From contig PMDB01000076.1 in NCBI GenBank assembly GCA_003155495.1, positions 48,656 through 84,851 of the forward strand: 36,196 bases of DNA, given 5' to 3'. A program made the translations under genes and the position numbers. This DNA is from Ignavibacteriota bacterium (lineage in GTDB: Bacteria > Bacteroidota > Ignavibacteria > UBA10030). The notes below the pieces were generated by a model, which was not told the origin of the DNA, made no database searches, and saw only the letters and a program-made list of their open reading frames with translations. This document shows, piece by piece, positions 4,656 through 36,196 of this stretch (position 1 is the first letter of the stretch; every line of letters begins with the position of its first letter).

Positions 4656-6131
4656 ATGAAAACAAAAGAACCTTCCCATCAATTCAAACGCGGGCTTGGA
4701 TTACTCGACTCGACGATGATTGTCATCGGCTCAATGATTGGCTCGGGAATTTTTATCGTCAGTGCCGATATCGGACGTATTGTTGGAGCACCGGGATATC
4801 TGCTCTTGGTTTGGCTGATTACCGGTGTGATGACGGTGATTGCCGCACTCAGCTATGGCGAGCTTGCCAGTATGATGCCTCACGTCGGCGGACAGTATGC
4901 CTATCTCCGTGAAGCATACAATCCTTTCATTGCATTTCTCTACGGATGGGCTTTGTTCCTGGTCATTCAAACGGGAACGATCGCAGCAGTAGCTGTAGCC
5001 TTTGCAAAATTTACGGGAATTCTCATTCCCTGGTTCAGTGAAAAGAATATTCTTCTTTCTTTCGGCAAGTTTCACATTACTGCAGCACAGATTCTTGCGA
5101 TGGTGAGTGTCATTCTCTTGACCACCGTGAATGTGCGAGGATTACAGGAAGGGAAAATTATCCAGAACATTTTTACATCTATAAAAATTAGCGCTCTTCT
5201 TGGATTTATTTTTCTCGCGTTATTTATAGGTCAAAACACATCTGCCGTCGCTACAAATTTCAGCAACTTTTGGAATGCGACATGGACGCAAGTAGCAAAT
5301 GGCAAGATTCTTTCCATCACTCCACTGTCCGGTCTGATGCTTCTCTCTGCTATCGGTGTCGCTATGGTTGGTTCTCTTTTCTCCGCTGATGCTTGGAACA
5401 ATATTACGTTCACTGCAGGAGAAGTCACAAATCCAAACCGCAACATACCATTAAGTCTTGCTCTGGGAACAGGAGCAGTCATTCTTATGTACATTCTCGT
5501 AAATATCGGGTACCTGTTGGTTCTACCTTTGAACGGTTCGCCTGAAGCAACAGATGCAGTAGGACGAGGAATTCAATTTGCCGTCAGCGATCGAGTCGGA
5601 ACAGCTGCCGCCTCTGTTATTTTCGGCGAAAGTGCTGCAATTATTATGGCAGTGATGATCATGATATCAACCTTTGGATGCAATAACGGATTAATACTTG
5701 CTGGTGCACGCGTGTATTATGCAATGGCAAAGGATGGATTGTTCTTTAAAAGTGCAGGAATATTAAACAAGAAATCAGTGCCCGGTGCTGCACTTGTTGT
5801 CCAATGCATATGGACATGTCTTCTATGTCTCTCCGGCACTTATGGCGACCTGCTTGACTATGTCGTCTTTGTCGTGTTGGTGTTTTATATTCTCACGGTG
5901 ATCGGAATTTTTATATTACGAAGGAAACGTCTGGATGCCGAGCGGCCATATAGAGCATTTGGCTATCCGATTATTCCAGCAATTTACATTTTACTTGCCG
6001 CTGCAATCTCGATTGACCTGCTTATTTTCAAACCGCAGTACACATGGCCGGGATTGGGAATCGTGCTGTTGGGCATTCCGGTGTATTTTGCGTGGAAGAT
6101 GTCGCCAATGTCTGTAAAAGAGAAGAAGTGA
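4656..6131 (+). CDS. APC-superfamily amino acid permease
   Basis: A 491-residue polytopic transporter. GSMIGSGIFIVSADIGR in TM1 and YGELASMMPHVGGQYAYLREAY in TM3 place it in the APC family near LAT-type exchangers; FSADAWNNITFTAGEVTNP is the TM6-TM7 signature. Ribosome site GGAG about 8 bases before ATG. It follows another permease in the same direction. Its last 140 bases matter for the region: degraded copies of the same 3' end recur at about 9136-9219 and 15850-15992, so this is the surviving member of a set of duplicated permeases. The substrate is not determinable from sequence. Confidence 0.9.
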   Translation: MKTKEPSHQFKRGLGLLDSTMIVIGSMIGSGIFIVSADIGRIVGAPGYLLLVWLITGVMTVIAALSYGELASMMPHVGGQYAYLREAYNPFIAFLYGWALFLVIQTGTIAAVAVAFAKFTGILIPWFSEKNILLSFGKFHITAAQILAMVSVILLTTVNVRGLQEGKIIQNIFTSIKISALLGFIFLALFIGQNTSAVATNFSNFWNATWTQVANGKILSITPLSGLMLLSAIGVAMVGSLFSADAWNNITFTAGEVTNPNRNIPLSLALGTGAVILMYILVNIGYLLVLPLNGSPEATDAVGRGIQFAVSDRVGTAAASVIFGESAAIIMAVMIMISTFGCNNGLILAGARVYYAMAKDGLFFKSAGILNKKSVPGAALVVQCIWTCLLCLSGTYGDLLDYVVFVVLVFYILTVIGIFILRRKRLDAERPYRAFGYPIIPAIYILLAAAISIDLLIFKPQYTWPGLGIVLLGIPVYFAWKMSPMSVKEKK

Positions 6132-9135: not shown

Positions 9136-9219
9136 TTTATTTTTAAACCACAGTACGCCTGGCAAGGATTTGGAATTGTACTGTTAGGAATTCCGGTGTA
9201 TTTTGTGTGGAAGAAGTGA
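9136..9219 (+). pseudogene. Permease 3'-end remnant (copy B)
   Basis: In frame it reads IFKPQYAWQGFGIVLLGIPV then YFVWKK and TGA, matching the last residues of the intact permease at 4656-6131. Everything upstream of this tail is lost. Position relative to the next gene is the same as for the intact permease and its LytTR remnant: the tail converges on a LytTR gene with about 20 bases between stops. Confidence 0.85.
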
Positions 9220-15849: not shown

Positions 15850-15992
15850 ATATATATTTTGCTCATTGCTCCTATCTCAATTGACCTGCTCATTTACAAA
15901 CCGCAGACGCCTTGCCAGGATTGGGGATTGTGCTGCTGGGTGTTCCAATGTATTTTGTGTGGAAGAAATATAACTCTAGAACTGTATCATAA
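15850..15992 (+). pseudogene. Permease 3'-end remnant (copy C)
   Basis: ISIDLLIYKPQ on the plus strand matches ISIDLLIFKPQ in the intact permease at 4656-6131. A small deletion then shifts the frame, and the nucleotide match resumes through the region for LLG.P.YF.WKK. The copy reads TATAACTCTAGAACTGTATC before a stop. It lies upstream of the TonB receptor and beside the lysA terminator, with no LytTR tail after it. Confidence 0.8.
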
Positions 15993-20543: not shown

Positions 20544-21617
20544 TTAAACTGCTTTGGCAGGAAGAAGCTTTTGATTCATTGGCTGCATTGATAATTCCAA
20601 AGATCGTATCGCACTTTCCAGTACCGGTCGTTGCACCTTCGCATAGATCATCGTTGTCTTGATATCCGCATGCCCTAACAACTTGCTTACCGTCAAGACA
20701 TCCACACCGGCATCGATGAGTTTTGTAGCGTGCGTGTGACGAATACTGTGAAGTTTGAAACCAACCAACCCAGCTTTCTCACAAAAATATATGAACTTGT
20801 GAGTAACAAGACTCGGCGTAAAATCCGCAAACAACTCTTCGCCAAGTTCAAGCAATATTACTTTTGCCCGACGGCTCAGCGGGATCATCCGTGTCTGTTT
20901 TGATTTTGACTTTATAACATAGAGAAGATTCTTCTTGAAGTCGATGTCCTGCCAACGTAAGCGCAAACCTTCTTCTCTTCTCATTCCTGTGTGCAACAAC
21001 AGTTCAACATAAAGTCCAAACTTATGATGAATGGCGCGATGGTGTGCATTTCTGCTGTTCATCGCTTCAGTTCGGATACTATTGAACAATAATTCAAGTT
21101 CATCATCCATAAGAAACCGTCTACGCTCCTGCACTTTTAGATTGCGAAGCTCACTAAATGGATTCTTCTCGATATATCCCCACTTTGTAGCTACGTTAAA
21201 CATTGCATGTAGCGTCCTACGTTCTGTGTTAAACGTAACGGGTTTAACGTGTTGCAACGTATGCCCCTGCCATCGATCAAGAAGTCGAGCGTCAACAGAC
21301 CGAAGGTTTATATCACCTGCAAATTTCAGGAACTTCTCTACGTGGATTCTTTGCAGGTATATAGTCCGCTCTGATTTTACTCCCTCCGCATATTGGAAAT
21401 ATTCATCGCGAAAATGCGAGAAACTACAATCCTTTTGCTTGTACTCTAAAAGATTAAACGTTCCTCGGGCAATTTTCCCTTGTATGTCGTCGAGTATTGT
21501 CCGGGCAATCTTTGGATCCGATGTCTTGGTAGACATTACATAGCGTCTTCCTTTATAGGAATAATCGATATGATATACGAACCCTGTCTTCGTTTTTATT
21601 TTTCGCAAACACGCCAT
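20544..21617 (-). CDS. Phage/island-type tyrosine recombinase (integrase)
   Basis: A 357-residue site-specific recombinase. N-terminal arm-binding-like region (1-65: TKTGFVYHIDYSYKGRRYVM), SAM-like core-binding domain (about 66-155), catalytic domain from about 165 with R213 (HTGMRREEGLRL), a Lys in the beta hairpin (IKSKSKQTRMIPL), H290 and R293 (LHSIRHTHATKL), H316 (LLGHADIKTTM) and nucleophile Y325. The catalytic set is complete. It lacks the extra helix insertion near the HxxR box that marks integron integrases, so it is not IntI. It is transcribed toward the broken tRNA-Leu, as in many tRNA-targeting islands, and shares one base with the excisionase-like gene upstream. Confidence 0.93.
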   Translation of the reverse strand: MACLRKIKTKTGFVYHIDYSYKGRRYVMSTKTSDPKIARTILDDIQGKIARGTFNLLEYKQKDCSFSHFRDEYFQYAEGVKSERTIYLQRIHVEKFLKFAGDINLRSVDARLLDRWQGHTLQHVKPVTFNTERRTLHAMFNVATKWGYIEKNPFSELRNLKVQERRRFLMDDELELLFNSIRTEAMNSRNAHHRAIHHKFGLYVELLLHTGMRREEGLRLRWQDIDFKKNLLYVIKSKSKQTRMIPLSRRAKVILLELGEELFADFTPSLVTHKFIYFCEKAGLVGFKLHSIRHTHATKLIDAGVDVLTVSKLLGHADIKTTMIYAKVQRPVLESAIRSLELSMQPMNQKLLPAKAV

Positions 21618-24778: not shown

Positions 24779-26092
24779 CTACTTCCCCCAATTTGCTGAT
24801 TTTTTGTAATGGTTATCAAACTCCTTGAATATTTCAGTGCTATAAAATTTCATTCTAGAACTATTTTCGTTTTTTGGATTGAGCAAACGGACAGTACAAT
24901 AACGCACACCATTCTTCTCAGGATCTTCCAACTCTTTTTTCAGTCGATTAAATGCCTTATTAAATTTCAAATCGGAATAACGTTCTTTCAATTTCTCTTT
25001 AAGTTCAGTAAATGACATAGGATATCTTCTTGCCAAGTCATCTTCGACTGTCGTTCTAACCTTTATTGCATCGGGATCATTAGAGTATTGAACTAATACA
25101 GTTGATTCAGTGGATGAGCGCACGAACTTCGTTGAAAGTTTCATTGAAACATTCATATTGTTTTCTTGAGTTGAAATACTTTCGTTCTCCAAATACGATA
25201 GAAATTCGAGGACTCTTTTCATTTCATGACTCGATTTTAATAAAGATACAGGATCCATTGTCTGAGGTGTATAAAATGAAAGAGGCATCAAAAAGAAATT
25301 GTATTTCGATAAATCATAATTGAACCATCTTTGTATAAGAATTAGATAATTTCTCAGACTTGCAGTTCCAAATTCTTGAACTTTTACGCAGAACATCACA
25401 CCTTTGTTCATAAAATGAACTGCGTTATCTCGTATCTCAATAAGACCAGCAAGATTTAAACGTAAATCTTTAGGCACATTAAGTTCACCAAGCTTTCTCA
25501 TTGACTCATCAATATCGATTGTTCGAGGATTTCCTGTTCTATTTTTCTTCGTCCCATCATAAATCGTTTTTATCTTGTTACCATTGTCGTGCAATAATTT
25601 AGCTTTAAATAACAACTCCCATGCATTGATCATTAATACGGAAAAGGTTTCTTCCCTATATTTAAAATCAGGTTTGTTATAGATTTCTATAGCAGAGAGA
25701 CATGCAAAAACTGACTTATGAAGAAGTTCTTTCGCACGACCTTGTGCTTCACGAGGTTGCGCTTCAATTCCAATTATCATTCGACATACTTCACCGTTTC
25801 TATTTTTATACAATAGTCTCTTTATATTTTTTGGTTCTGTTTTGAATTTAAATCCAAGGGTATGAAGTCGATTGATTAAAGCAGCAGGCTGATCGCTAAT
25901 ACTACGTAGCTCAGTATGCAAAGCCTCCCTTTTATATGTAAGAATTAAAGCAGCGAGTAGGCTGGAGGACCTAAAGGGCGTACCTTTAAAATTCAATAAA
26001 TCATCATTGATAGCTGGGTTTTCCGAAATACCAAATTTCTTCAAACATTGCTGAATCGCTGCTTTTCTTTCAGATACTAGATCAATATTCAT
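24779..26092 (-). CDS. DUF3644 domain protein
   Basis: 437 residues from ATG at 26092, which has GGAGG five bases upstream; the frame opens earlier with TTG at 26170 but that part overlaps the methyltransferase remnant. An N-terminal helical, HTH-like region (1-110) precedes the DUF3644 block (about 143-320: EETFSVLMINAWELLFKAKL; DLRLNLAGLIEIRDNAVHFM). DUF3644 proteins occur in accessory regions with restriction and other defence genes; biochemical role unknown. The C-terminal third (LARRYPMSFTELKEKLKERY; FNRLKKELEDP) looks like a small winged-helix region. Base composition is AT-richer than in the resident genes. Confidence 0.75.
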   Translation of the reverse strand: MNIDLVSERKAAIQQCLKKFGISENPAINDDLLNFKGTPFRSSSLLAALILTYKREALHTELRSISDQPAALINRLHTLGFKFKTEPKNIKRLLYKNRNGEVCRMIIGIEAQPREAQGRAKELLHKSVFACLSAIEIYNKPDFKYREETFSVLMINAWELLFKAKLLHDNGNKIKTIYDGTKKNRTGNPRTIDIDESMRKLGELNVPKDLRLNLAGLIEIRDNAVHFMNKGVMFCVKVQEFGTASLRNYLILIQRWFNYDLSKYNFFLMPLSFYTPQTMDPVSLLKSSHEMKRVLEFLSYLENESISTQENNMNVSMKLSTKFVRSSTESTVLVQYSNDPDAIKVRTTVEDDLARRYPMSFTELKEKLKERYSDLKFNKAFNRLKKELEDPEKNGVRYCTVRLLNPKNENSSRMKFYSTEIFKEFDNHYKKSANWGK

Positions 26093-26153
26093 TATCCCTC
26101 CGATTATTTTAAATCCATCCAACAACATTCGGGGAGGATTCCTTAAGCTAAAT

Positions 26154-26234
26154 TCATTTCCCCTCCACAATCCTTATATCTTCCTCAGTCAAACCATTTA
26201 GCTCATACACCGCATCATCAATTTGGTGGTCGAG
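26154..26234 (-). pseudogene. C-terminal remnant of an Eco57I/PglX-like N6-adenine methyltransferase
   Basis: The minus strand encodes LDHQIDDAVYELNGLTEEDI followed by RIVEGK and a stop. The D..IDELVYELYGLTEEEI..VEG ending is characteristic of type IIG/BREX-type adenine methyltransferases. Nothing else of the gene is present; it begins abruptly a few bases inside a broken attC site, so it was cut by recombination or deletion at the array boundary. Confidence 0.65.
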
Positions 26235-26262
26235 ACTTCACCATTCGAGCGCTTGGTTAGGT
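26235..26262 (-). repeat. attC site, 5' (R''-L'') part only
   Basis: On the minus strand ACCTAAC (R'', 26256-26262) is followed by CAAGCGCT (L''), directly after the stop of the AlbA_2 gene. The rest of the site is replaced by the methyltransferase remnant. The bases 26257-26270 are the exact reverse complement of 27303-27316 at the other end of the cassette. Confidence 0.75.
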
Positions 26263-26269
26263 GGCGTAT

Positions 26270-27298
26270 CTATTTCAGTGATTTGTCTTTTACTTTTATG
26301 TCTTTATAAAAAGACTCACCTGTATTGGGTTCAGCATTATCCGCGTAAACCGTCCAATAGATCTTTAAGTCTCTTAATTCTGGAGTATCCTTTAACAAAA
26401 TTCTTGAATAGGAATTTGTTGATAATGAGACATTTGTTTTAGGTAAGACCGGAATATATCTTGTAGGGCCATAATTTGGATAACTGAATGAGCCACTACC
26501 GCTTGCTCCGATAACATCTCTGTCCGTATTTTTTCGAAATCTCTTTTCAAAAGGAATACCATCCTTCAAGAAGATTTCAGGAGTTGTTCGTTCATCTTTT
26601 TTAATAAGAATTGCTTCGGGAATTTCAAGGACACAATTGATATAGTTTGCCAATATTTTGCCATTATTGTATGCATATACTAATAATTCAATATCAGTAC
26701 GATACTCTGGTTCTTGTTTATGATCGACGAATAATGGAATACCTGGAATACCGCGACTGACTTCATAGGTTTCTTTCTCTATAAGAAACTCTATATTAAT
26801 TACAGGTGTTTGTGCGCGATTTAATATGTCGCGTATTTCGTAGTCGTACATAGCAGTAGATTCAAAATTGAACCTCTTATAATACCTTTTATCACTGGCT
26901 TGGTGAGCGGTATTACTTTTTGGTATAGTAACCACATAGATCACACCGTTCGGAGAAACGCTAGTAGGAATTGGCTCAATGATGATATTAGATATGCGCG
27001 GAAAGATATTTGTATTAATAATTTGCTCTAACCATTCTTTCGAAATATCATTTCTATCAATTGGGTCAATTTTTTCTGGTAAGTGTCTCATCTCTGAAGC
27101 ATCATATTCTTTAACTCCATATATAATGACACCTCCGTCAGAGTTTGCCATAGCAGAAACATCCTTAGCAATTTCCTTTTTCTTTGAATCCGAGGATTTG
27201 CTGAGAGATTCTGCTGACTTATAATCAAGATTCAAATTTTCCTCAATATGATTCTTAATTAAACCTAATATTTCTTTTTCATTCCATAGCTTATTCAT
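26270..27298 (-). CDS. Schlafen AlbA_2-domain protein (cassette gene)
   Basis: 342 residues. The N-terminal AlbA_2 putative nucleic-acid/ATP-binding domain spans about 1-150: E..LDYKSAE then KKKEIAKDVSAMANSDGGVI and IYGVKE, followed by IPKSNTAHQASDKRYYKRFN, the typical order for this family. The C-terminal half (about 165-342) is beta-rich, of unknown type. AlbA_2 proteins are common in transcription-regulator and defence contexts. ATG is about 12 bases downstream of the R' box of the preceding attC, and the stop lies eight bases before the R'' box of its own, the compact layout of an integron cassette. A 14-bp perfect inverted repeat brackets the gene. Confidence 0.88.
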   Translation of the reverse strand: MNKLWNEKEILGLIKNHIEENLNLDYKSAESLSKSSDSKKKEIAKDVSAMANSDGGVIIYGVKEYDASEMRHLPEKIDPIDRNDISKEWLEQIINTNIFPRISNIIIEPIPTSVSPNGVIYVVTIPKSNTAHQASDKRYYKRFNFESTAMYDYEIRDILNRAQTPVINIEFLIEKETYEVSRGIPGIPLFVDHKQEPEYRTDIELLVYAYNNGKILANYINCVLEIPEAILIKKDERTTPEIFLKDGIPFEKRFRKNTDRDVIGASGSGSFSYPNYGPTRYIPVLPKTNVSLSTNSYSRILLKDTPELRDLKIYWTVYADNAEPNTGESFYKDIKVKDKSLK

Positions 27299-27310
27299 TT
27301 TTGATACGCC

Positions 27311-27467
27311 ACCTAAGGAATGGAGCTAAGCTGCGACGTTGATAACCTTCCAATTTTACCGCTGTCGCGCAGAATACCTTACTTAAATTCATAATCTTTA
27401 CCTTCCACGCGCGGACTTTTGCACCCGCGTTCTTTCCGTCAGCTTGCCTGCCTGGATCATTCGCTGC
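27311..27467 (-). repeat. attC-like site, R'' side decayed
   Basis: The minus-strand 3' half is clear: TTATCAACGTCGCAGCTTAG as in the other sites, then CTCC and CTTAGGT (R', 27311-27317). The 5' side keeps CAAGCTGACGG but the R''/L'' boxes are degraded to GAATGATCCAGGC. It probably cannot be recut at the R'' side. Confidence 0.65.
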
Positions 27468-27477
27468 TTACAATCTT

Positions 27478-28044
27478 TTACAGGATGAAATATTTGGCAC
27501 CAATTCCCACAAGGAATGTGTCAGTTGAGTTTTGAGCATTATAGCGTACCCTTGAATAAACCATTGCGGGTTCTATAGAAGCTGAACGTGCAATAAATAT
27601 TTCCAGCCCTCCGGTGAAGTTGTATCCGGTTGTTGGTGCTTGGAACGGCTGACTGGAATCGTAATATGACGTCATCCAGGAAATTTTCCCGCTTGCTCCG
27701 ATAAATGGAGCGACCTTGTCTAAAGGGAAATAAAAACGCATTCCCAGGTCTAATGCGAGGCTTTTACTTTTTGCCGGATTTACATAATAAACGTTTGCAG
27801 GATTGAGGTCTATAGAAGTGTATGTATAATCGACGCCGAAGGACAATTCAAATTGATCGATGAGGAAATACGAGATGGATGGTGCAAGAGCATAGGTCGA
27901 ATTGCTAAAACCTCCTTCTACAGTCTTTATCGAAGAATAGGAAATGCTTCCGCCGAGCGAATAAACTCCCTGCTTTATTTGGTCCTGGGCTGGGGATGCT
28001 GCAAACAGGAAGGCAACCAGGCACAGACTACGGGTGATTTTCAT
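27478..28044 (-). CDS. Outer-membrane beta-barrel protein (OmpW/OmpA-barrel-like size)
   Basis: 188 residues from ATG at 28044, with AAGGAG eight bases upstream; a longer frame to 28101 lacks a sensible start. Signal peptide MKITRSLCLVAFLFAASPAQ. The rest alternates polar and hydrophobic residues with aromatic girdles (YSLGGSISYSS, FELSFGVDYTYTSIDL, LALDLGMRFYFPL, FLVGIGAKYFIL), an eight-stranded barrel of the outer-membrane-beta-barrel group. It ends in a hydrophobic-aromatic C-terminal strand. Function unknown. It directly precedes a decayed attC on the transcribed strand, suggesting it is a cassette gene whose upstream site has been lost. Confidence 0.78.
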   Translation of the reverse strand: MKITRSLCLVAFLFAASPAQDQIKQGVYSLGGSISYSSIKTVEGGFSNSTYALAPSISYFLIDQFELSFGVDYTYTSIDLNPANVYYVNPAKSKSLALDLGMRFYFPLDKVAPFIGASGKISWMTSYYDSSQPFQAPTTGYNFTGGLEIFIARSASIEPAMVYSRVRYNAQNSTDTFLVGIGAKYFIL

Positions 28045-28398: not shown

Positions 28399-29610
28399 TC
28401 AACGTAGTTCACTGGAAGTAATATGACATTTGATATCGCTTAATTTAGTATTACACAACCACTTCTGAATTGGGATCAACTGGTTGCGACGAATCCATGG
28501 GTCGTAACCACTTGCAATAATGACCGATTTATATAAGACTTCAGATGGTTTTTCGTGGAGGTGAATTAGAGTATTTCGAGGACAACGATCAAACCAAGCA
28601 TCTATTCGAAAGTTAATAGCTGTGTCACCCCATCCATACCCTGACATCACCATGACTTCACATTGACTTAGAATTTGATGTAAGCGAAAATGCATGTCGG
28701 CATAGATTCCACGTTGGTATGAAACAGCCTTATTTATTCCAGTTAAAAATGACGGCATGCGAATTTCAAGTTTGAGTTCAGTTCCGTTTCCATCCTTGAT
28801 ATGTTTGATATCGTCACCGAGAAAGATTACTTCCTTCAATCTTCCATCCACTACAAACGAATGCCAATTCACAGAACCGTGTAATTTAAATAATCTGACT
28901 TTAGCCTGACGCACATCATACACATCATCTTTATACCACCGCACATCGCCATCACGTTCGCCAAATCCATCTACGAAATCCACTCTATTCTCAAACAGAA
29001 ACCGCTCAATTAGAGTGTCATGGTTGAGTGTGAATATGTTTAATTGTTCTATGTCTTGTGCAGTCGCTAATTCAAGAATAAGATCGAATCCAACTAAATC
29101 TTTCGTGTGACGTAATTCTCCGGCCACGACTGACTCGATAAAAAAACACGCATTCTCAGCGAGGGAACCCAGGTAGCTCAGTCGAGCCATTACGCTGCCT
29201 CCTATAAGGAGTTTGCCGGCTTTCTTCTCTATGACCTCCATCAGTGGAGTAACAAGTGAATTGTCAACTCGACCATCGCTCCAATATTTCATCTGTTCGC
29301 AAAGAAAAAACAGATCTTCATACGAAGTGACACCTCGAAATATTGCTCCAGAACTACTCTTACCTGGCGGATAATATCCCACACGTTTAATATCACGTTT
29401 GTCGTGTCTGCTAAGTAACCGCAGAAGTCGGCGAATTCGGATTATAACTTCTTCCGATTCTTGACTATCAAGGTTTTGTTTGCCTGGGCTGAAATGAATG
29501 GAGCTGTCCTGATGGTAGGCACGGTTATAAATTGCGCGGGTTAATTTCTCTGCAGTTGGTAAGCCGGAAGGAACAGAAACTCCAGCGCCAAGAAATAGAA
29601 TTAGTTTCAT
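28399..29610 (-). CDS. SIR2-like domain protein, putative NADase (defence-type)
   Basis: 403 residues of the SIR2-like clade used by several antiphage systems. Rossmann NAD-binding start LFLGAGVSVPSGLPTAEKL (6-24), catalytic-type NHD at 196-198 (FTLNHDTLIERF), H244 in LFKLHGSVNW, and the distal MSGYGWGDTAIN (322-333). No second domain of note (no TIR, HerA, TPR), so either it works alone or with a partner outside. It is not a classical zinc-containing deacetylase: no CxxC pairs. Enzyme activity is inferred from the family. It lies downstream of a truncated attC, so is likely a cassette gene that lost its upstream half-site. Confidence 0.85.
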   Translation of the reverse strand: MKLILFLGAGVSVPSGLPTAEKLTRAIYNRAYHQDSSIHFSPGKQNLDSQESEEVIIRIRRLLRLLSRHDKRDIKRVGYYPPGKSSSGAIFRGVTSYEDLFFLCEQMKYWSDGRVDNSLVTPLMEVIEKKAGKLLIGGSVMARLSYLGSLAENACFFIESVVAGELRHTKDLVGFDLILELATAQDIEQLNIFTLNHDTLIERFLFENRVDFVDGFGERDGDVRWYKDDVYDVRQAKVRLFKLHGSVNWHSFVVDGRLKEVIFLGDDIKHIKDGNGTELKLEIRMPSFLTGINKAVSYQRGIYADMHFRLHQILSQCEVMVMSGYGWGDTAINFRIDAWFDRCPRNTLIHLHEKPSEVLYKSVIIASGYDPWIRRNQLIPIQKWLCNTKLSDIKCHITSSELR

Positions 29611-29732: not shown

Positions 29733-29762
29733 TTACTGACAAGCGTGAGCGCCTGGTTTGGC
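29733..29762 (-). repeat. attC site, 5' part only, overlapping the end of a gene
   Basis: Minus strand GCCAAAC (R'', 29756-29762; one base off GCCTAAC) then CAGGCGCT (L''). The 3' half with GCAGCTTAGCGCC is absent before the SIR2-like gene, so the site is truncated. Confidence 0.7.
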
Positions 29763-30485
29763 GGCGCTTTCTTTTGCCTGTCGATCCTCATCACTTAAAA
29801 GCCAAATAGCTGGATATTGAGCATTAATAAAAGTTATAGCATCATTCGTTATTCGCAGGGATTCCGTCAGAGGAAATAAAAGCATTCCTAGAGAAAGATC
29901 ATTTATCCGTGCGCTTCCATCAATATATAATATTAGCCTTTCGTGATCCATCTTTCCATACAGCCCATGCATACCACTATAGTTAGGATGCGCAAACTCA
30001 GACAAGTCTTCATAAGCAACTTTAAATCCCTCATAGAGTTTGTCAACCTTATCAACAGCTGTCATAATATTGCTAACTCTGACAAGCGATAATTCATTAC
30101 GCCCACCGAATAACCTGACAACAATTGCATTATGAATTTCATTTAAGTCACCCTTTTGTAGACTGGAATCAAGACTTAAATAAAGATCAAAGATTGCTGC
30201 AGCGTTTTCTGCAATAGCTCGGGCAAGAATAAATGTGATTGCTGGTTGTCCATTATCCCAGCAATTGACCGCAACCGTGAACAAATCGACAACCCGATGA
30301 ATAGTAAGTTGGATAAATGACTTAACCATCCAAACAGTTTTAGGCGTCATTGGATCGGTCACGGGATCAACAATTGAAGCCTTATATGATTCAATTGAAT
30401 CAGCCAACGAATTCAAATATTCTATATGCTCAGACTTTGTGTCTGTATAGCGAGCAGAATCGTTTTTAAAGTGAACTAATGCCAT
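29733..30485 (-). CDS. Unknown helical protein (cassette gene)
   Basis: 250 residues, mostly helical, no signal peptide. Blocks such as FILARAIAENAAAIFDLYLS and YEDLSEFAHPNYSGMHGLYG recall the RA.(E/H).....L......FAH.....H arrangement of DUF5677-like and HEPN-adjacent proteins, but I do not recognise the family with confidence. Start ATG is 13 bases after the R' box of the attC at 30501-30679. The last residues AAKPGAHACQ are translated from the R''-L'' part of the following attC, with the stop inside it. An 11-of-12 inverted repeat (29757-29768 with 30495-30506) brackets the gene. Confidence 0.78.
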   Translation of the reverse strand: MALVHFKNDSARYTDTKSEHIEYLNSLADSIESYKASIVDPVTDPMTPKTVWMVKSFIQLTIHRVVDLFTVAVNCWDNGQPAITFILARAIAENAAAIFDLYLSLDSSLQKGDLNEIHNAIVVRLFGGRNELSLVRVSNIMTAVDKVDKLYEGFKVAYEDLSEFAHPNYSGMHGLYGKMDHERLILYIDGSARINDLSLGMLLFPLTESLRITNDAITFINAQYPAIWLLSDEDRQAKESAAKPGAHACQ

Positions 30486-30500
30486 ATTTCTTTTAGCGCC

Positions 30501-30679
30501 GCCTAACGACCGGCGCTAAGCTGCGGCGTTGATAACTTTCAATATGCAACCAACGAAGCGAGTTCATGCTGGTTCTTTCAATTTTGTAACAACCTATACA
30601 CGCCATGCTTGACGCACCCAGCTGGCAACCGTCAGCTTGTTTACCCGTCGTCTTACTGGGCGGGAGCGCCTGATTAGGC
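30501..30679 (-). repeat. Complete attC-like site, 179 bp
   Basis: On the minus strand R'' GCCTAAT (30673-30679), C, L'' AGGCGCT, a long interior, then L' AGCGCC and R' GTTAGGC (30501-30507). The two ends pair as CGCCGCCTAA..AGGCGCT with AGCGCC..TTAGGCGGCG, leaving unpaired bases between L' and R' as in integron attC sites. The interior includes AAGCTGACGG, which can pair with CCGCAGCTT, and a loosely repeated TGATAACTTTCAA unit. Confidence 0.82.
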
Positions 30680-35240: not shown

Positions 35241-35268
35241 TCTTTTAAAAAAAGGGCAATCAGTTGCG

Positions 35269-35447
35269 GCCTAAGCTACGACGCTGATAACTTTCAAAAT
35301 GTACTAAACGAAACAAGTTCATGCTGATAACTTTCAATCTTGTACTCAACCTATGCTCGCCATGAATTTCGCACTCAGCTCATTCCGTCAGCTTGTCCCA
35401 ATGGGTTCCCCCAAAGGGGCAGGCCTTCGGGAAGCGCCTGGTTAGGC
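35269..35447 (-). repeat. attC-like site, 179 bp, L' region altered
   Basis: Minus strand R'' GCCTAAC (35441-35447), C, L'' AGGCGCTT, an internal hairpin CCTGCCCCTTTGGGGG, an interior with two TGATAACTTTCAA-like units (as seen on the plus strand), and an end GCGTCGTAGCTTAGGC. Compared with the other sites the L' segment (CGCCGGTC) is missing and R' reads CTTAGGC, so the right end has suffered a small deletion. Confidence 0.78.
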
Positions 35448-35481
35448 AGCCATATAACATGATTGTTTTAACTGTGAATGA

Positions 35482-36093
35482 TCACAGTATAATTGAAAAT
35501 CCAAATAGTACACCAAAATAGGAATATGTAACATTAGTGCTATTTGTTGGAATTGCTGGGAACATATTATGGTACGGATCAGTATAAGTAAATGATTCGC
35601 TACGATAATTTAATTCAACTTTCAGAGCTATATCATTTTTCACTAAATATTTTACGCCCGTTCCCGCATTGATTATATGTGCAATCCATTTATCAAATGT
35701 GAATTGATAGACTCCATTAAAAAGTGGAAAAGATATTGAATTACTTATGCCGTATCCACCCTCGACAAACAGAGCAATATTAGAATTTGGAATACGTTTA
35801 TTATATGAAAGATTGAGAATAAGAGAATGTGCTGGCGGGAGATTCTCTTCTGCCAATAAGCCATATTGAGGTTCAATGGATAAACCATCAAGAAAATAAT
35901 ATCCAATTGAGGTATTAAGGAATACATAAATACCTGACATGGTCGCAGGAGGCATCATTTCAGAGGTGTTCGTAGTACCAAGACCACCGCCAGTTCCAGA
36001 TAGTGAAAGTTCAACATTTCCTTTTTCAAATTGTGCAGGTGCCAGTGTTATTCCAAGAATGATTGTTAATACCACTAGAATTAGTCTACTCAT
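35482..36093 (-). CDS. Small outer-membrane beta-barrel protein (cassette gene)
   Basis: 203 residues from ATG at 36093 (AGGAGAG about four bases upstream; a longer frame begins five codons earlier). Signal peptide MSRLILVVLTIILGITLAPA. The remainder shows about eight amphipathic strands (GIYVFLNTSIGYYFLDGLSI; IALFVEGGYGISNSI; IALKVELNYRSESFTY) and ends YSYFGVLFGFSIIL, a typical barrel closing strand. Weak resemblance in layout to the barrel protein at 27478-28044, but not a close copy. A 16-bp perfect inverted repeat (35442-35457 with 36119-36134) brackets the gene, so this is a clean cassette. Confidence 0.8.
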   Translation of the reverse strand: MSRLILVVLTIILGITLAPAQFEKGNVELSLSGTGGGLGTTNTSEMMPPATMSGIYVFLNTSIGYYFLDGLSIEPQYGLLAEENLPPAHSLILNLSYNKRIPNSNIALFVEGGYGISNSISFPLFNGVYQFTFDKWIAHIINAGTGVKYLVKNDIALKVELNYRSESFTYTDPYHNMFPAIPTNSTNVTYSYFGVLFGFSIIL

Positions 36094-36128
36094 TTTCTCT
36101 CCTATCATTTAGCATTTCTTATATGGCT

Positions 36129-36196
36129 GCCTAACGGACCGGCGCTAAGCTGCGGCGCTGATAATTTTCAAAATGCACCCAACGAAACAAGTTCAT
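36129..36196 (-). repeat. attC-like site, continues beyond the window
   Basis: R' GTTAGGC (36129-36135) preceded on the minus strand by AGCTTAGCGCCGGTCC (L' side) and AAAATTATCAGCGCCGC, the same 3' half as the other sites. The R'' half lies to the right of the window. Confidence 0.78.

Follow-up and report, generated by a model that had tools for sequence, protein, structure and literature searches.

How does a single gene come to lie between two copies of a short sequence that are perfect reverse complements of each other? The question arises in a 36,196-nucleotide stretch of an Ignavibacteriota genome, called the window below, where TTAGGTGGCGTATC at 26257-26270 on the plus strand returns as its exact reverse complement at 27303-27316. 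The first arm runs up to the stop codon (TAG, 26272-26270) of a minus-strand gene with an AlbA_2 domain, and the second lies four bases upstream of its ATG (27298). No solved structure matches the encoded protein by sequence. The initial annotation had described a 14-bp perfect inverted repeat bracketing this gene, and the repeat was confirmed at both positions. The 14-mer occurs only twice in the whole genome of 3,585,865 bases, once per strand. Directly outside the arms, the adjoining base pair is mismatched, with GTTAGG reading from 26256 and CTTAGG from 27317.

Repeats of this length can form by coincidence, as 3.5 inverted repeats of 14 bases are expected at any distance in 36 kb of shuffled sequence and the window holds seven. 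Within 1.5 kb, however, only 0.29 exact repeats of at least 14 bases are expected, and the window has two. Both of these short-range repeats bracket cassettes, namely AlbA_2 and a second one at 35441-36135 whose full arms measure 17 bases. Since the same arms also stand at the same ends of a homologous gene in another genus, the probability of a chance repeat is practically negligible.

The surroundings of the gene point to an answer. Read on the minus strand, the region from beyond 36196 down to 26247 is a succession of genes, and between them stand attC sites (R'', L'', L', R') with the pattern RYYYAAC-CAGGCGCT ... AGCGCCGGTCC-GTTAGGC. Similar attC sites are scattered across several contigs of this genome and occur in its relatives as well. 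The AlbA_2 gene is almost certainly an integron gene cassette, and its arms are the R' and R'' boxes of its own attC together with eight further complementary bases. The features of the array are collected in the table. The neighbouring cassette is likewise bounded by arms of its own, GTTAGGCGGCGCT (30507-30495) and AGCGCCGCCAAAC (29768-29756).

Table. Coordinates of the AlbA_2 cassette and of the array elements around it in the window.
Feature	Position	Strand	Remark
AlbA_2 cassette start, R' and extension CTTAGGTGGCGTATC	27303..27317	(-)	crossover position judged from attI junctions in relatives
End of the coding part of the cassette, extension GATACGCC and R'' ACCTAAC	26256..26270	(-)	identical in the relocated relative L082
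AlbA_2 cassette gene, 342 aa, SLFN_AlbA_2 domain (PF04326, E 3.9e-17)	26270..27298	(-)	
Left part of the cassette's own attC, R''-L'' ACCTAACCAAGCGCTC	26247..26262	(-)	L'/R' half missing; unrelated sequence follows
Right half of the upstream attC, AAGCTGACGG ... GCAGCTTAGCTCC ... CTTAGGT	27317..27480	(-)	its R'' is not recognisable
Neighbouring cassette (gene 29733-30485)	29756..30507	(-)	arms 12/13 complementary
Intact attC of the array, GCCTAAT CAGGCGCT ... AGCGCCGGTC GTTAGGC	30501..30679	(-)	
Cassette with outer-membrane-protein-like gene, 17-base perfect arms GTTAGGCAGCCATATAA	35441..36135	(-)	

Arm complementarity is far higher within cassettes than between neighbours. The comparison covered 94 cassettes flanked by recognisable sites in five genomes of the genus, which were detected by their core and internal motifs only, and it measured contiguous complementarity beyond the 7-base R boxes. 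Within one cassette the mean was 5.6 bases (median 6, mode 8). Neighbours sharing one chromosomal attC averaged 0.68 bases and all other pairings 0.76, and in 10,000 permutations the within-cassette mean was never equalled. Counted from the G, the paired fraction is at least 0.76 up to position 13, then 0.63 and 0.46 at positions 14 and 15, and at background from position 16; total self-pairing in these cassettes is typically 13-15 bases. The arms have little fixed sequence apart from GTTAGGC and the following NGC, and their mismatches show no clear preference for a strand (16 wobble pairs on the top strand and 11 on the bottom). Twelve of the 94 cassettes lack any extension beyond the R boxes.

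Matched private arms, present in most cassettes, are therefore a general rule in this genus, and the AlbA_2 pair is not special. The earlier view that matched arms mark one incoming unit is supported, yet it loses the special status attached to this pair, since private arms are general in the cassettes of the genus. The GGTGG variant had also been thought to be common to these two ends only. This is true within the window, where the variant is confined to the AlbA_2 arms, but it does not extend to the genus, in which other cassettes start with GTTAGGTGGC.

Relatives with an integrase reveal where cassettes are opened. Four genomes of the same genus (G004, G005, G006 and G008) carry IntI above the NCBIfam TIGR02249 cut-off of 265 bits, with scores of up to 454 bits. 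The IntI of G008 matches the solved integrase 2A3V, named IntI4 there, with an E-value of 4.6e-81. Its gene adjoins a long array from which it diverges, and its sequence contains what we take to be the additional domain of IntI. Beside IntI in G008, G005 and G004, the last bases of attI are constant (GTCTAATCATA), while the next 17, 16 and 16 bases, respectively, are the exact complement of the first cassette's far end and differ among the three. These junctions show directly that cassettes are opened at the R' crossover (G^TT) and carry the extended arm along with them. In a fourth case, C29 of G005, no matching far arm was found.

The AlbA_2 cassette itself also appears elsewhere, with its arms. 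A homologue from a different genus within the family (G025; L082, DOWV01000015.1) shares 66% amino acid identity, and the two cassettes are 69% identical in DNA. There, GTTAGGTGGCGTATC precedes the start and its complement follows the stop, in surroundings unrelated to those in the window, so that gene and site have relocated as a unit with the same 15-base arms and different flanks. The arms of the two cassettes agree in 29 of 30 bases, and the sole difference falls on a base of the upstream site. Matched arms also enclose a more distant homologue (L089, 57%), where they have a different sequence, GTTATAAGGCT. Within-cassette pairing, relocation and the attI junctions in relatives together support the original proposal that the arms belong to a cassette opened at R'. 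Among viral contigs, no AlbA_2 relative was found by protein; 35 such contigs each contain a single copy of the 15-base arm, never a pair, which we read as chance matches.

These observations can be placed in a simple cycle. The free circle would contain a single attC, with an outer stem formed by R'' and R' (7 bp) and about eight more pairs. The integrase would open this circle at R', cutting between G and TT. The sequence that follows the cut would then form the left end of the inserted cassette, and its paired partner (RYYYAAC and the extension) would remain at the right end. Because the cut at R' separates the paired halves, the gene would end up between two arms that form an inverted repeat. 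The extension is expected to pair within the folded attC of the circle and thereby stabilise the site. Folding with DNA parameters gave a circle form that is on average 7.4 kcal/mol more stable than the array form, and the circle was the more stable of the two in 71 of 73 folded sites. A point against this account is that the bottom strand is not predicted to fold better than the top one, and folding energy offers no explanation of strand choice.

What the extension does is less certain than where it comes from. It may be a passive relic of the origin of the cassette that recombination does not use, a reading that concerns only the extension and not the R boxes. The near absence of fixed sequence beyond NGC fits this idea, as do the cassettes without any extension. 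Against it stand the consistent pairing length of about 14 bases kept in many unrelated cassettes and the near identity of the arms in two AlbA_2 cassettes that have diverged so much further in the rest of their DNA, and we consider a passive relic somewhat unlikely. A functional proposal, which we put forward tentatively and regard as doubtful, is that the R arm in this genus might have a set length of about 14 bases, equal in size to a full tyrosine-recombinase half-site, and be maintained through pairing and not through sequence. Such an arm would pair along its whole length only in the circle; in the array, where a site joins two cassettes, this pairing would be interrupted. The extension would thus let a circle fold into a better substrate than an inserted site and bias the reaction toward insertion. 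If the extension matters only in the circle, there would be a simple reason why insertion could be favoured over excision.

Two other explanations of the arms were considered. The arms could be the terminal inverted repeats of a transposable element, whose transposase recognises the 14-base ends and moves the gene, and short perfect repeats at both ends of a single gene suit such an element. No transposase lies between the arms, however, and the outside bases (26240-26256 and 27317-27333) show no target duplication. Moreover, the arm sequence is private to each cassette and joined to a conserved attC interior, which is unexpected for a transposase with fixed ends, and transposition is thus highly improbable. 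Alternatively, the arms might act in RNA, pairing in the transcript to join the leader before the ATG to the stop codon and so control translation or mRNA stability. They abut the stop and start codons closely enough to make this pairing physically possible, but the attI G^TT boundary and the association with an integrase already explain them, and a role in RNA is very unlikely.

As integron cassettes, the units of this genus resemble known ones in their RYYYAAC and GTTRRRY boxes, their complementary L boxes and the single orientation of all cassettes. In relatives, the likeness extends to an IntI that has the additional domain and whose gene diverges from the array, and to the attI junction at G^TT. 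Pairing beyond the boxes has been described (PMC8352920), with self-pairing that reaches 9-11 consecutive bases in most cassettes (PMC2727003), and R' and R'' within an array need not be complementary (PMC5371416). Compared with the cassettes of PMC2727003, arms in the genus pair over 13-15 bases in most cases instead of 9-11, and attC sites are mostly 155-250 nt long instead of 57-142 nt. The Vibrio superintegron (VCR) of Vibrio sp. HDW18 likewise has cassette ends that are complementary beyond the conserved box, with much less complementarity between neighbours, but the median total is 10 bases there and 13 in the genus (p about 2e-6, same measure). The class 1 cassette catB3 has 13 complementary end bases, GTTAGACGGCAAA, and long arms are therefore not unique to the genus, although catB3 differs in attC interior and host group and is the sole case quoted from class 1 plasmid arrays, where automatic attC finding recovered few sites.

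The arm-pairing principle is already established, and the genus cassettes lie at the long end of its range. In the part of PMC9024848 that recounts its authors' earlier survey, Bacteroidetes are given as having only integrases without attC sites; the present genus documents integrons with long-armed attC in an apparent Bacteroidota lineage. Arm matching also marks cassette borders without any knowledge of the integrase. Ends that match each other and nothing else identify one incoming unit, even if the integrase has been lost or the sites have decayed.

The genome of the window (G000) may be such a setting. No IntI above the family cut-off was found in this 97%-complete draft of 119 contigs, in which an IntI may have been missed. 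The recombinase encoded at 20544-21617 of the window was considered and rejected as IntI, being Xer-like and scoring 79 bits against the cut-off of 265. Several attC sites in the window and at L011, with no IntI found, make the system a CALIN (at least two attC and no neighbouring integrase) and not a complete integron (intI, attI, array); it differs from a typical CALIN in that the fragmented draft may conceal an integrase.

The AlbA_2 cassette was classed as truncated. Its gene is followed by R'' (RYYYAAC) and L'', which read ACCTAAC CAAGCGCTC at 26262-26247 on the minus strand, but the L'/R' half is absent downstream of 26247; complete sites exist elsewhere, for example at 30679-30501. The GTTRRRY start reads TTAGGT from 27316, where the cassette proper begins, and is preceded by C instead of G. 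This C at 27317, a G in working sites, is part of the upstream site. Because no IntI was found, the attC lacks its right half and C replaces the G of GTT in the upstream R', this copy has probably become stranded in this genome, fixed in place and no longer mobile. Both attC sites beside it are incomplete, and the case for mobility therefore rests on relatives.

At ten loci (L079, L150, L158, L041, L144, L152, L149, L076, L147 and L155), an attI-like TCTAATCATA immediately precedes the start of a cassette, and no integrase gene was seen next to it. They lie in G000 at C29:1569, C119:1836, C108:684 and C18:70160, and in relatives on C24 and C59 of G004, C37 and C118 of G005, and C1 and C8 of G008. 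Several of the first cassettes have matched arms, and C18 of G000 and C118 of G005 have a common upstream gene followed by different first cassettes. Such loci may be remnants, or else docking sites that are served in trans.

Four AlbA_2 relatives from other Bacteroidota (L083, L084, L087 and L088) lie between arms of a different type, GTTGTNNNNAATTA and TAACTNNNNACAAC. At position 11 of these arms an A-C mismatch recurs, and the opposite strand has a G-T pair there. L087 and L088 additionally have long spacer repeats. This arm type is possibly an undescribed attC class. A canonical IntI is present in only one of the four genomes, and in three genomes with AlbA_2 relatives, the recombinases of about 400 aa are without the IntI additional domain, and no attC-like hairpins of the kind looked for lie next to their genes.

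Within the window, candidate defence genes lie beside the AlbA_2 cassette, encoding a DUF3644 protein (PDC-S19 models) at 24779-26170 and a SIR2-like protein at 28399-29610. Behind the truncated attC, region 26100-26250 contains a 26-residue open stretch, LDHQIDDAVYELNGLTEEDIRIVEGK, followed by a stop, which looks like the tail of a lost gene, with an ending of restriction-modification type; it has no Pfam match. The segment 30690-35260, which contains two genes, has at its start an attC (35263-35280) from which the L' box and some of R' appear to be gone, perhaps through a deletion between two TTAG repeats. Finally, three diverged direct copies of an 81-base segment occur at 6022-6102, 9137-9217 and 15889-15969, the first falling within the last part of an amino-acid permease gene and the other two apparently gene remnants.
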